64,000 nt of DNA from Gemmataceae bacterium. Its GTDB lineage: Bacteria; Planctomycetota; Planctomycetia; Gemmatales; Gemmataceae. The position numbers and the translations under genes were made by a program. Location: NCBI GenBank assembly GCA_019636445.1, contig JAHBXO010000002.1:186001-250000 (forward strand). The letters run 5' to 3'. The notes below the pieces were generated by a model. It saw only the letters and a list, made by a program, of their open reading frames with translations. It made no database searches and was not told the origin of the DNA. This document shows positions 18,111 through 64,000 of the stretch, in pieces (the stretch's first letter is position 1; every line of letters starts with the position of its first letter).

Positions 18111-18441
18111 TGCCCCGGAGGGGCATCGGGCTGTAGCCACGGGTGGAGCGAAGCGGAACCCGTGGTCGAATCGAATACTCGAATCGCCCCGAAGGGGCGA
18201 AGGAACGAAGGATGTGAACGTCCCTCGACCCCTGCCGGGGTCGCGTTGTCCGCGATAGCCACCACGGGTGGAGCGAAGCGGAACCCGTGGTCGAATCGAA
18301 TACTCGAATCGCCCCGAAGGGGCGAAGGAACGAAGGATGTGAACGTCCCTCGACCCCTGCCGGGGTCGTGTTGTCCGCGATAACCACCACGGGTTGCGCT
18401 GCGCTACACCCGTGGCTACACTCCGCGGCCCCTCCGGGGCC
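18111..18441. repeat. Repeat-rich region: 125-bp tandem duplication of palindromic units
   Basis: Two direct copies of a 125-bp unit (18137-18261 and 18262-18386) are followed by a partial third from 18387. Each unit begins with a hairpin CCACGGGT...ACCCGTGG and contains GCCCCGAAGGGGC and CCCCTGCCGGGG hairpins. The block is bounded by GCCCCGGAGGGGC at 18112 and GGCCCCTCCGGGGCC at 18427-18441, so the whole is a foldback. The same motifs recur at 62699-62895. It separates the DUF1501 and DUF1549 genes that are normally adjacent, and contains no credible gene. Confidence 0.88.
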
Positions 18442-18504
18442 AAAACCCACGGGATCGAATGGCATCACGAGTTGGCCGATAGACCTCGAAATGCCCTGCG
18501 AAAC

Positions 18505-25689: not shown

Positions 25690-25931
25690 GTCTTCAGGCC
25701 GAAGGCCTGGGAGTGCTTAGCCCAGGGCAACGCCCTGGGTCGCACGTACCCGGAGCCAGCAGCCTGAAAGGCTGCGACGAGGCCACGATCCACCTCACGT
25801 TTGCGTACATCTCATCCCGGTTGGGTTCATCCATAAGCCTTCGTGTCGCAGCCTTTCAGGCTGCGGTTTGGTCGCACCCCTAACCCAGGGCGTTGCCCTG
25901 GGCTAAGCAATCCCAGGCCTTCGGCCTGAAG
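25690..25931. repeat. Foldback repeat of the CCCAGGGC family
   Basis: The left arm (25690-25740) reads GTCTTCAGGCCGAAGGCCTG then GGAGTGCTTAGCCCAGGGC..., and the right arm (25883-25931) is its near-exact complement. Between them are CAGCCTGAAAGGCTG and its inverted copy, so the element is a nested hairpin about 240 bp long. The same family forms the tandem block at 61605-62606. The 426-bp gap between the large cytochrome gene and the Tat protein gene holds nothing else recognisable. Confidence 0.88.
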
Positions 25932-25968
25932 AGTTCAATCCTGAAGAGTTCTACGTTACAGCCCACCC

Positions 25969-59850: not shown

Positions 59851-60535
59851 CCCGCGCGTGCCCGAGTCCGTCTGGACCGTCATCGCGGCCTACAACGAAG
59901 GCGAACGCCTCGCCGTCACGCTCGCGGCGCTCCTGCCCGTCTGCTGCAACGTCGTCGTCGTGGACGACGGCTCGCGGGACGACACCGCCGCCGTCGCCCG
60001 CCGCTTCCCCGTCTGGGTTCTCCGACACCCCATCAACCGCGGCCAGGGGGCGGCGCTCCAGACCGGCCTCGACTTCGCGCTCGCGAAGGGGGCCGAAGTC
60101 CTCGTCACCTTCGACGCTGACAACCAGCACGACGCCGCCGACCTGCCCGCCGTCATCGCTCCCGTCCTCGCCGGCACCGCCGATGTCGCCCTCGGCTCGC
60201 GCTTTCTCGGCCGCGCCGAGAACATCCCCGCTTCCCGCCGCCTCGTCCTCAAGCTCGGCGTGCTCTTCACGCGCTTCGTCTCCCGCATCGCCGTCACGGA
60301 TACGCACAACGGATTCCGCGCCTTCTCCCGCGAGGCCGCCGCGCGCATCCGCATCACGCAGGACCGCATGGCCCACGCCTCGGAAATCCTGGACGAGATC
60401 CGCGCCCTCGGCCTGCGCTATGTCGAAGTGCCCGTCACCATCCGCTATTCCGACGCGACGCTGGCGAAGGGCCAGAGTTCGTGGAACGCCGTCCGCGTCG
60501 CGTGGCAGTTCCTGATCGGCAAGGTGATCCGATGA
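59837..60535 (+). CDS. GT2-family glycosyltransferase (dolichol-phosphate mannose synthase-like)
   Basis: 232 residues from a GTG at 59837 with GGAGG seven bases before it. The GT-A motifs are VIAAYNEGERLAVTLAALLP, VVVVDDGSRDDT, HPINRGQGAALQTGL, and the DxD motif in LVTFDADNQHDAADL; the C-terminal part has HNGFRAFSREAA and IRYSDATLAKGQSSWNAVRVAW. It resembles DPM1-like synthases that make polyprenyl-phosphate sugars. An earlier in-frame ATG at 59810 would be possible but lacks a good ribosome site. It overlaps the upstream GT4 gene and DUF2304 downstream by ATGA. Confidence 0.93.
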   Translation: MPGPDPRVPESVWTVIAAYNEGERLAVTLAALLPVCCNVVVVDDGSRDDTAAVARRFPVWVLRHPINRGQGAALQTGLDFALAKGAEVLVTFDADNQHDAADLPAVIAPVLAGTADVALGSRFLGRAENIPASRRLVLKLGVLFTRFVSRIAVTDTHNGFRAFSREAAARIRITQDRMAHASEILDEIRALGLRYVEVPVTIRYSDATLAKGQSSWNAVRVAWQFLIGKVIR

Positions 60536-60894
60536 GTACGTTCCAGATCGTCGCCGTCGCGGTGCTGGGCAGCCTGACGCTGCGGGAATTGATCGTGTCG
60601 TTCACGCGCGCCCGGGGCCGCGGCATGCGCCTCGCTCGCATGGTCGTGTGGGGCACGGCCACGGCGGCGATCCTGAACCCCGGCCTGCCGCAGGCCCTCG
60701 CGAACCTCCTCGGCATCGGCCGCGGGGCGGACGTTGTCCTGTATCTCTTCGTGCTGGCGTTCCTGTGGGTGTCGTTCTTCCTCTACTCGTGCCACCTCCG
60801 CGTGCAGCGCCAGGTGACGCAGCTCGCCCGCCACATCGCCATCCAGGAAGCGGCTCGCGGGGGGCAAGGGGAGGCAACTCATTTTCAGGGATGA
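60532..60894 (+). CDS. DUF2304 membrane protein
   Basis: 120 residues with three or so hydrophobic segments (IVAVAVLGSLTLRELIVSF, MVVWGTATAAILNPGLPQALANLLGIGRGADVVLYLFVLAFLWVSFFLYS) and a C-terminal cytoplasmic helix (RVQRQVTQLARHIAIQEAA). DUF2304 proteins are often encoded directly after a DPM-like GT2, as here, and may help it at the membrane. Its ATG overlaps the GT2 stop by 4 bp. It is the last gene of the unit, and its 3' end overlaps the convergent nuclease-like gene by 10 bp. Confidence 0.88.
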   Translation: MSTFQIVAVAVLGSLTLRELIVSFTRARGRGMRLARMVVWGTATAAILNPGLPQALANLLGIGRGADVVLYLFVLAFLWVSFFLYSCHLRVQRQVTQLARHIAIQEAARGGQGEATHFQG

Positions 60895-61379
60895 AAGGCG
60901 ACTCCGTTTTCATCTTCTGGTGCTACACCTGTCACGAGCAGCCACCACCGCCCCGGCCCCATCCGGAATGGCTCCAGAAGTCCGATCAACTGCTGGCTCG
61001 GCCGGCTGGTGCTATAGCCGCCAGTCTTCCATGAGGGTGTAGCGGTCCAACCCAATGCCTCCGCCAATTCAACGGCCTGCGGGTAAGTCATCGCGTAGGT
61101 CACCGCGGCCGCCGGATCGCCAAGGTGCCAGACATACGCAAGGATCAAGTCGGCCAGTCGTTCATACTTGCTGAACACCCCGAACCCACTGGTGGTAGAG
61201 GCCTTCATTTGGATCGGCCGCGCGGCAAACCGATCAACTTGCCGGCTTAGGTCGGAATACGCGATCAGGTCCACCCCACGGTCCCGGACTGGCAGGGCAA
61301 CCTCCAACCCGTCTCGCACCAATTCGGCGATCAGCCGCTGGCGGCCCAACAGTTCGACGACCTGCGTGTCCAACTTCAC
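60885..61379 (-). CDS. Possible PD-(D/E)XK nuclease-like protein
   Basis: 164 residues from GTG at 61379 with GGAGGGAG close upstream. The segment RDRGVDLIAYSD (Asp37) followed by ARPIQMKAS (Gln57, Lys59) fits the PD-(D/E)XK pattern, with Gln in place of Asp/Glu, and an earlier Glu19 in a helix (RQRLIAELVRDGLEV). Similar small proteins are annotated as group I intron-associated or restriction-related nucleases. The C-terminal half (SWKTGGYSTSRPSQQLIGLLEPF) is not recognised. It stands alone, convergent with the DUF2304 gene and next to the repeat block. Defence or DNA repair are possible but unproven. Confidence 0.6.
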   Translation of the reverse strand: MKLDTQVVELLGRQRLIAELVRDGLEVALPVRDRGVDLIAYSDLSRQVDRFAARPIQMKASTTSGFGVFSKYERLADLILAYVWHLGDPAAAVTYAMTYPQAVELAEALGWTATPSWKTGGYSTSRPSQQLIGLLEPFRMGPGRWWLLVTGVAPEDENGVAFHP

Positions 61380-61604
61380 GTCGCTCCCTCCACCGTCGAA
61401 AGTTTCCAGGTATGCCGGGCACGTCGGCTACGCTGGCCGATGTCGCCCCTTCTGCCACCGAGGCATGCGATGGAATCGTCGACACGGCTCATTCTCGCTG
61501 TCGATCGGGATCGGTGCAACGACGAAACCGATTCTCGGCGAGCGGCGCGGCGTTCACATGCGGCCAGACGGGAGACAGAAAGTTAAAGGGGACGCGGCGC
61601 GTCA

Positions 61605-62606
61605 GTGTCTTCAGGCCAAAGGCCTGGGAGTGCTTAGCCCAGGGCGAGGAGGCTCTGAGACGACGCCCTGGGTGGCACGGAGGAAAACGGTCAGCCCGAA
61701 GGGCTGAGACAAAGGGCCGATCGACATCGCTCCTGTCGCAGTCCTTCGGACTGCCGGCTCGTGGACACGATCACCCAGGGCGTCGCCGAAGCGGCTAGCC
61801 CTGGGCTAAGCACTCCCAGGCCTTCGGCCTGAAGACCGAATCAATCAGGCCTTCGGCATGAAGACCAAACTAATCCGTCCTTCGGATCGAAGAGAACCCG
61901 CGGTGTCGACATTTGCACCACGGGTGTGAAACGGGGTCTAGTGTCGATTCCGCCGAAGAAACATATCGGGAACGCATTTCATTCCGGGCGTTTGTGTCTT
62001 CAGTCCGAAGGACTGGGAGTGCTTAGCCCAGGGCGAGGAGGCTCGGCGACGACGCCCTGGGTTTCGGGGCAAAAAACGGTCAGCCCGAAGGGCTGAGACA
62101 ACGGGCCGATCGACGGCGCGTTTGTCGCAGCCCTTCGGACTGCCGATCGATTCGACGGCGAACCCAGGGCGTCGCCGAAGCGGCTCGCCCTGGGCAAAGC
62201 ACTCCCAGGCCTTCGGCCTGAAGACCGAACCAATCAGTCCTTCGGCCTGAAGAGAACCCGCCAATCGGTCCTTCGGACTGAAGCGAACGCGCGGTGTCGA
62301 TAGATGCACCACGGGTGTGAAACGGGGTCGGGAGTCGATTCCGCGGCGGGAAATAGAAAGGGGACGCCTCCGGGCGTCTGTGTCTTCAGTCCGAAGGACT
62401 GGGAGTGCTTAGCCCAGGGCGAGGAGGCTCGGCGACGACGCCCTGGGTGGCACGGAGAAAAACGGTCAGCCCGAAGGGCTGAGACAAAGAGTCGATCGAC
62501 ATCGCTCTTGTCGCAGTCCTTCGGACTGCCGGCTCGTGGACACGATCACCCAGGGCGTTGCCCTGGGCTAAGCACTCCCAGTCCTTCGGATTGAAGAGGG
62601 CCGGCG
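61605..62606. repeat. Three tandem units of a ~388-bp foldback repeat
   Basis: The signature GTGTCTTCAG starts at 61605, 61994 and 62380, giving periods of 389 and 386 bp. The third copy is cut short near 62606. Each unit contains an outer inverted pair (for example 61607-61673 with 61773-61836), an inner CAGCCCGAAGGGCTG hairpin and a CAGTCCTTCGGACTG hairpin. The copies differ by scattered substitutions. The same sequence family occurs at 25690-25931. Many short open frames run through it but none looks coding. Confidence 0.9.
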
Positions 62607-62630
62607 GAATCGACTCCCGACCCCGTTTCA
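62318..62630. repeat. 313-bp foldback with 27-bp terminal inverted repeats
   Basis: Positions 62318-62344 (TGAAACGGGGTCGGGAGTCG...) are exactly complementary to 62604-62630. Within are the two inverted halves of the third repeat unit. It is shaped like a non-autonomous mobile element or foldback, but no obvious target-site duplication was seen and no transposase is present. Confidence 0.75.
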
Positions 62631-62698
62631 TACGATTCCCAGTTATTATCCATCGCCATTGACTGGTCAAACATCCCCACGAATGCTCTTGGTTTTTT

Positions 62699-62895
62699 GC
62701 CCCGAATGGGGCAACGGGTTGTAGCCACGGGTGGAGCGCAGCGAAACCCGTGGAAACATCGGGACCCCGTCGCCCCGGAGGGGCGAAGGAACGTTCGCCT
62801 GCCCCTCCGGGGCAGTTCCAACCGGTTCGAGTGTCGAGTACCACGGGTTCCGCTTCGCTCCACCCGTGGCTACACACCGCGGCCCCTCCGGGGCC
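62699..62895. repeat. Second copy of the CCACGGGT foldback family
   Basis: Bounded by GCCCCGAATGGGGC (62699-62712) and GGCCCCTCCGGGGCC (62881-62895). Inside are CCACGGGT...ACCCGTGG hairpins at 62725-62753 and 62841-62869 in opposite orientations. This is the same family as the 18111-18441 block but without its tandem duplication. Confidence 0.85.
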
Positions 62896-62997
62896 AAGAA
62901 CGGTCTCCACCGGGCACGGCGGTCCGACTCTTGCAAACAGGACGGCAAGTATTTTTTGGGAAGCGTATCACACACTCACACGCCCACACTTCCGGCT

Positions 62998-64000
62998 TCA
63001 ATAATCCGTCGATTTGAACTCGAACGCGGCAAAGAACAGCACCACCGGCGCGAAGAGCGCGCTCGCGAGCGCCGACAACTCCGGCCGGAACAGGCCCTTC
63101 TTCTGCACCGCGTCCAACTCGGGCACCGGGGCCGCGAAGCCGGTGGCGCGCATCGAATCGTAGAAGATGCCGCCCAGGTCCAACGGCTTCGGCAGGATCC
63201 AGTAGATCGCATCCAACAGAACGCCCGACATCGCGCCGAGGCCTTCGACCGGCTGCGCGAGCAGGCGCAGGTGCGTGTAGTTCACCGTCCAGCAGAGCAG
63301 CCAGAAGAGCAGCGTGCCGAAGATGCAGACGACGGTGCTGCGGCTGACGACGGCGAGGAACGCCGACACGGAATAGAAGATACCGAAGTTCAGGACGAGC
63401 AACGGCACGGCGAGCCAGTAAGTGCCGTTCCAGACGCCGGTCTTGAAGCCGAGGGCGAGCCAGGTGGCGCCGACGAAGATCGTGGCCTGCACGGCGACGA
63501 ACAAGACGACGCCGAGATACTTGCCGAGCAGGATCGCCCAGCGCGGCGCGGGCTTCGCCAGCAGCACCGTGGACGACTGCGGTTCGAGGAACGTCGGCAG
63601 GAACCCGGCCGTCCAGAGCAGCGCGAGCAGCACGCCGGCGGTGTCGGCGAGGATCGCCGCGAGCCAGATCTGCACGTAGCGCACGGCGTCGTCCTTGTAT
63701 CGCGCGATCGGCACCGTCATCAGCCCGAAGCCGAACGACACTTCCCCGGACACGACCTTCAACTTCTCCTTCTTGACCTTCTCCTCGCCGAGTTCCTTCG
63801 CCTGCGCGGGCGTGATGAACCCGCCCGCGTCGTAGTCCTTGCCGCTCGACGGCGTGTCGCCCGACACGGTCATGCTCAGGCAGAAGAGCGTGCAGACGAC
63901 GGTGATGGCGAGCATCGCCCAAAAGAGTTTGGTCGCGACGGACTGTCGAAAGGTGTCCCGCACCATCCAGCGGAGCGTGCGGATCGCGAAGGCGAGGTTC
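62998..64000 (-). CDS. ABC-2 type transporter permease, 5' end beyond the window
   Basis: At least 334 residues; the frame stays open to the window edge, and an ATG at 63966 is probably internal because upstream codons (NLAFAIRTLRW) continue the family's N-terminal pattern. Six or more transmembrane segments are seen: KLFWAMLAITVVCTLFCLSM, WLAAILADTAGVLLALLWTAGFL, GVVLFVAVQATIFVGATWLAL, LVLNFGIFYSVSAFLAVV, LLFWLLCWTVNY and a C-terminal helix. A large extracytoplasmic loop follows the first helix. It resembles NosY/ABC-2 permeases of gliding or export systems. The ATPase partner is not in the window. The stop is 103 bp past the repeat block. Confidence 0.85.
   Translation of the reverse strand, partial: NLAFAIRTLRWMVRDTFRQSVATKLFWAMLAITVVCTLFCLSMTVSGDTPSSGKDYDAGGFITPAQAKELGEEKVKKEKLKVVSGEVSFGFGLMTVPIARYKDDAVRYVQIWLAAILADTAGVLLALLWTAGFLPTFLEPQSSTVLLAKPAPRWAILLGKYLGVVLFVAVQATIFVGATWLALGFKTGVWNGTYWLAVPLLVLNFGIFYSVSAFLAVVSRSTVVCIFGTLLFWLLCWTVNYTHLRLLAQPVEGLGAMSGVLLDAIYWILPKPLDLGGIFYDSMRATGFAAPVPELDAVQKKGLFRPELSALASALFAPVVLFFAAFEFKSTDY

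Follow-up and report, generated by a model that had tools for sequence, protein, structure and literature searches.

The window, i.e. the whole 64,000-nt stretch of DNA that was analysed, carries a tandem array between two convergent genes, one at 60534-60894 (plus strand) and an ABC-transporter gene at 62998-63966 (minus strand). Tandem Repeats Finder placed the array at 61599-62562, with a period of 389 bp, 2.5 copies and 84% matches, and a repeat search of the window recovered a 189-nt repeat three times at spacings of 389 and 386, the second and third copies having 81% and 94% identity to the first over these 189 nt, so that the duplication supposed in the original prediction stands up in self-comparison. 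A palindrome of 216-230 bp is present in every unit, with the sequence GTCTTCAG...CTGAAGA(C) in the array core, and the 389-bp period is made of one such palindrome plus a spacer of about 155 bp. Thus, the three foldback units of about 388 bp originally predicted exist as three units of about that length, but not as single foldbacks, and their near-constant spacing holds, although unit 3 differs by a shortened right arm that leaves a palindrome of 216 bp. The features of the array, and of a second pair of arms elsewhere in the window, are the following (no strand is assigned except where given):

61607..61836, core palindrome of unit 1, formed by two inverted three-hairpin arms
61837..61995, spacer after unit 1, with short hairpins repeated every 29 bp, followed by what is left of the outer MITE ends
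61996..62225, core palindrome of unit 2
62001..62015, HP2 of unit 2, left arm, CAGTCCGAAGGACTG
62027..62061, HP1 of unit 2, left arm, preceded by the foot TTAG
62081..62095, HP3 of unit 2, left arm, CAGCCCGAAGGGCTG
62127..62143, HP3 of unit 2, right arm
62163..62194, HP1 of unit 2, right arm
62206..62220, HP2 of unit 2, right arm
62226..62381, spacer after unit 2, 87% identical over 82 nt to the first spacer
62315..62344, plus strand, left arm of an inverted repeat of 30 nt that encloses unit 3, a degenerate outer end (97% complementary)
62382..62597, core palindrome of unit 3, with a short right arm; the one copy that the relative G001 has at the corresponding position is 93% identical to it
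62604..62633, minus strand, right arm of the 30-nt inverted repeat around unit 3 (97% complementary)
25690..25932, further pair of these transposase arms, with no gene between them

The open reading frames across the array (for example, 62386-62910 on the minus strand) are by-products of the repeats through which they run and none is a believable gene, in agreement with the absence of coding content noted at first. A 164-aa ORF adjoining the array (60885-61379, minus strand) has no Pfam match, and no counterpart of it was found at the corresponding junction of the relatives G001 and G003.

When unit 2 was folded as single-stranded DNA, a value of -105 kcal/mol was obtained, compared to -48.7 (sd 3.8) for dinucleotide shuffles. 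The resulting z-score was -14.9 (about -14.5 for DNA and RNA folding alike), indicating folding far beyond chance. The array had also been described as neither a CRISPR nor a normal terminator, and this was correct: the short regular direct repeats with unique spacers of a CRISPR are absent, and the array is too large, dispersed and insertion-like for a simple terminator. Rfam matches to MIR1437 and other miRNAs lay far below their cut-offs (50 bits against 168) and were rejected as chance hits from strong hairpins.

Pairing was then counted over 26 aligned cores, which are related copies, so that the counts are not independent events. Local hairpins were paired in 98.3% of the cells with 25 double changes, whereas pairing along the whole palindrome reached 95.0% with 14 double changes and failed in 23 of the 26 cores at one HP3 position. 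These counts disfavour one long foldback as the conserved structure and favour the local hairpins as the conserved units, as an HUH enzyme or an RNA would need.

The genome that contains the window (G000; 5.9 Mb in 98 contigs) holds about 17 full palindromes, including the three of the array, and many partial copies. Among the relatives searched, clear full copies in number were detected only in G001, a close relative of the same genus, and related arms in G035, G036 and G042; the further copies anticipated in the original prediction are therefore present both in the genome itself and in a close relative. The gene neighbours of the array are kept in G001 with a single core between them, and also in G003, where the matched segments are only 42 bp apart and hold no copy. 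Because one core is found in G001 and none in G003 at this junction, multiplication of the array would be local to this lineage, unless G001 lost units, which might have happened instead of a gain here.

The genome encodes eight Y1_Tnp genes, one of which (C1:58755-59201) is linked to the palindrome. This gene has 118-nt inverted arms on both sides and an array of REPs of about 77 bp upstream, and stretches of 38 nt in both the REP array and the arms match the window core with identities of up to 100%; the window palindrome amounts to the three-hairpin arm of this gene present twice in inverted orientation. The same gene is found at the same locus in G001, with the REP array expanded differently. 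The encoded TnpA (148 aa, with a Pfam Y1_Tnp match) scored 55.5 against the NCBIfam IS200 model, just over the cut-off of 55, and only 20.7 of 80 bits against the REP-associated model. In 26 homologues, D54, H55, H57, W93, Q94, Q117 and H121 are invariant and Y113 and H120 nearly so. Because a profile of 26 relatives matches the structures of the ISDra2 and IS608 TnpA proteins, an HUH single-strand transposase fold is well founded.

The residues DHxH, WQ and Y---Q--HH of this protein coincide with those of TnpAY1 subclass 1.2 (Y---Q--HH with DH[IV]H and WQ), as do its size and its copy number, with two members in the genome, one of them with window-type arms. It matches this subclass by published signature residues rather than by a tree of the published sequences. 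The survey by Quentin et al., 2018 lists for subclass 1.2 no REPs and no flanking terminal secondary structures (PMC6006769). This was tested on 80 loci with subclass-1.2-type genes from named genomes (Planctomycetota, Verrucomicrobiota, Bacteroidota, Acidobacteriota and others), 79 of them testable, with arms scored as inverted repeats at no more than 350 bp from the gene on both sides. Inverted hairpin arms were present at 60 of the 79 genes, compared to 0/79 for shuffled flanks and 4/63 for control windows away from the gene; flanks mispaired between loci were positive in 14/79, the motif being partly common to genomes. The arms contradict the published description of the subclass, not its signature.

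From the gene outwards, a common arm consists of a hairpin like GCCCTGAAAGGGC, a second hairpin like CCCAGGGC-AAC-GCCCTGGG, which carries N[CTA]AG at the outer foot, and a third hairpin. AG feet were found at 80 of 229 outward ends and at 25 of 232 inner ends, and the letters of the stems vary by locus while the foot is constant, as in REPs. The foot is NTAG in the window family (GTAG in some copies only) and N[CTA]AG across phyla, not the GT[AG]G of REPs and REPINs, with which the family nevertheless shares dispersed copies and a low-copy Y1 transposase gene.

The second subclass-1.2 gene of the genome (L021; G000:C1:49668-50117) has HAH replacing HVH and is flanked by 105-nt inverted arms (92%) with the same layout as the window family and a different sequence, so that arm families appear to be particular to each gene. 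Next to the array, at 62690-62905, there is another palindrome family, CCACGGGTGGAGC..., which is found also at 18111-18449, where a tandem pair of 125-bp units occupies 18137-18394. As it also flanks other subclass-1.2 transposase genes in G001 (L151, L150), it has the appearance of arms that belong to a sister transposase.

The core of the transposase arm corresponds to the two-hairpin consensus of Rfam RF01687, 'Acido-Lenti-1', an RNA of Acidobacteria and Lentisphaerae called from comparative data (PMC2864571). Matches were detected in the window at 61774-61831 (33.2 bits) and 62549-62593 (27.1 bits), both below the gathering score of 37, and one place elsewhere in the genome passes it with 37.4 bits. 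Matches at or above this score were found in 54 of 95 genomes of the same family. The motif lies beside the gene in 17/20 of the closest relatives and 3/10 more distant ones, in 13/20 loci of other phyla and in 8/20 further loci chosen as more distant. When presence of protein and motif was compared in the 95 genomes, both were found in 50, only the protein in 8, only the motif in 13 (many assemblies being incomplete) and neither in 24 (Fisher p = 4e-7, for genomes that are not independent and whose size may contribute). In genomes picked for the gene the motif was present in 18/22, with up to 119 copies, compared to 0/14 control genomes at the same threshold. It was concluded that RF01687 is mainly a putative DNA end of the transposase system, though some RNA role may exist. 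In the literature searched, no report was found of RF01687 as a transposon end, nor of MITEs in Gemmata.

In the dispersed copies, the likeness extends beyond the palindrome, and many of them lie within a larger MITE of about 322 bp with its own ends. These outer ends, GGGTG[AT]GCGTCA-N5-GTTGGTGG, form inverted pairs, at a distance of 320-324 bp in 11 of the 14 copies, and the 9-mers that flank them are alike at 6.64 of 9 positions compared to 4.69 by chance (0 of 2000 shuffles). A clean empty site was found at L140, where G000 lacks the insertion and has GCTGAGCGG once, and G001 has GCTGAGCGG on both sides of the insertion; for L132, orthologous flanks on both sides were not found. The dispersed composite copies therefore show the terminal inverted repeats and fixed-length target duplication of DDE-type MITEs. 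The L140 copy of G001 has its left end and some flank tandemly duplicated, which may be an example of how an array begins. There is also a short form of 118 bp, with the core cut down to about one hairpin. The core has the same orientation with respect to the outer ends in 12 of 13 scored copies, as if one composite had been amplified. In the window units the outer ends are degenerate, with no clear target duplication, and such ends are not recognisable at the locus of the transposase gene or at 25690-25932.

A search of the two draft assemblies for an autonomous parent with these outer ends, allowing up to 3 mismatches, returned only the known copies, the 118-bp form and probable chance matches. 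Characterised Y1 HUH elements (IS200/IS605) are not known to produce a target duplication; the 9-bp duplications of the copies, and these only, point to a DDE-type transposase, working in trans, as the most likely agent that moved the composite copies. Two copies depart from the general pattern: L136 (G001:C5:201488-201717), the sole scored copy with the core flipped with respect to the outer ends, suggests a palindrome inverted in place, and L031 (G000:C42:19069-19317) has a flanking direct repeat of about 20 bp, GGAAGTGACTCATGGAACC, instead of the usual 9 bp.

The arms and the transposase belong together, and composite copies insert with 9-bp duplications. We consider it likely that the array is a nested, non-autonomous mobile element in three tandem copies, now decayed, with a REPIN-like core and an outer MITE layer, and that it was multiplied locally. 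The inner layer would be a REPIN-like palindrome of two inverted arms (HP1 with an NTAG 5' foot, HP2 and HP3) of a subclass-1.2-type Y1 HUH transposase, whose TnpA would bind the hairpins as single strands during replication and nick or join beside them, allowing the arms to spread and multiply. As for the outer layer, in many dispersed copies the palindrome is carried in the MITE of about 322 bp, with ends GGGTG[AT]GCGTCA and 9-bp target duplications, and a DDE enzyme in trans would have amplified the composite. In the window, one inherited copy, unit 3, common to G001, would have given rise to three through recombination or replication slippage, and the outer ends of the window units would have decayed. 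The array owes its tandem copies to a local event apart from the mobility of the element. The amplified mobile or structural element first proposed was right in kind, but the mobile unit is the REP-like palindrome and not the 388-bp period.

The RF01687 matches could also mean that the repeats encode a structured small RNA, with the tandem array raising its dose, and the compensatory changes in the local hairpins would be expected for an RNA too. Nevertheless, both window matches score below the gathering threshold, the matches flank a transposase gene as inverted pairs and also lie inside inserted elements, there are dozens to 119 copies per genome, and the comparative basis of the family cannot separate DNA hairpins from RNA. 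This explanation is consequently quite improbable, and the window hairpins are probably not the 'Acido-Lenti-1' small RNA.

An explanation in which the Y1 TnpA alone moved and multiplied everything, the outer ends and 9-bp repeats being its own element, would account for the clear linkage of arms and gene, and this is the only transposase found tied to the palindrome. It is unlikely all the same, as the copies have 9-bp duplications, which characterised Y1 HUH elements are not known to make, no outer ends are recognisable at the gene's own locus or at 25690-25932, and the constant orientation of core and outer ends in 12/13 copies is that expected from one amplified composite. The position of the array between the convergent genes, with GC-rich hairpins that can be read both ways, would also suit a bidirectional terminator or mRNA stabiliser kept for that role; we regard this as highly improbable, because G001 has a single copy at this junction and G003 has none, so that both sequence and copy number turn over fast, although such a role may exist as a side effect of the array.

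Extending the nested-element explanation beyond this locus, we propose, as a possibility with an even chance of being right, that the subclass-1.2 HUH transposases make up a REP system that spans phyla and has so far escaped recognition, with inverted arms of three hairpins and a foot N[CTA]AG, and that Rfam lists this system as a small RNA; in this genus, its REPIN would also have been captured by a DDE MITE. If true, the repeat could be spread by two unrelated transposition machineries. The findings assign putative hairpin substrates to a transposase subclass reported without any, making its chemistry testable. They also put on record a nested element, with the ends of one transposon class carried inside another, and suggest that a curated RNA family is transposon DNA, in which case annotations in many phyla may need revision.

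Among known systems, the family resembles the REPs, REPINs and REPtrons of RAYT/TnpAREP (PMC3733652, PMC3116915, PMC6006769) in its hairpins, which carry a foot, form inverted pairs and are dispersed in many copies, and in being tied to a Y1 transposase of low copy number that sits at a fixed locus. It differs from them in a transposase of subclass 1.2, nearer to IS200, a foot N[CTA]AG instead of GT[AG]G, arms of three hairpins and a core nested in a MITE with target duplications. The TIRYT/TIRtron systems (PMC3733652) also have a Y1 transposase between long terminal inverted repeats, some self-complementary and some multicopy, but most TIRYTs belong to subclass 2.1 with GGGGWSAS motifs, according to Quentin et al., whereas the present family has the Y---Q--HH signature and trains of hairpins as arms. 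With TnpAY1 subclass 1.2 (PMC6006769) the linked protein shares its 148 aa, DHxH, WQ and Y---Q--HH and its low copy number; that subclass was reported mostly from Cyanobacteria and Bacteroidetes (PMC6006769), whereas the genes described here have arms and REP arrays and occur in Planctomycetota and many other phyla. Compared to RF01687 as described (PMC2864571), the motif appears here as a DNA end beside transposase genes in many phyla. Finally, like the MITEs of DDE transposases, the composite copies are short and non-coding, of near-constant length, with inverted ends and a 9-bp target duplication, but inside they hold a REPIN that belongs to an unrelated transposase class, and no parent transposase was found in the two draft assemblies.
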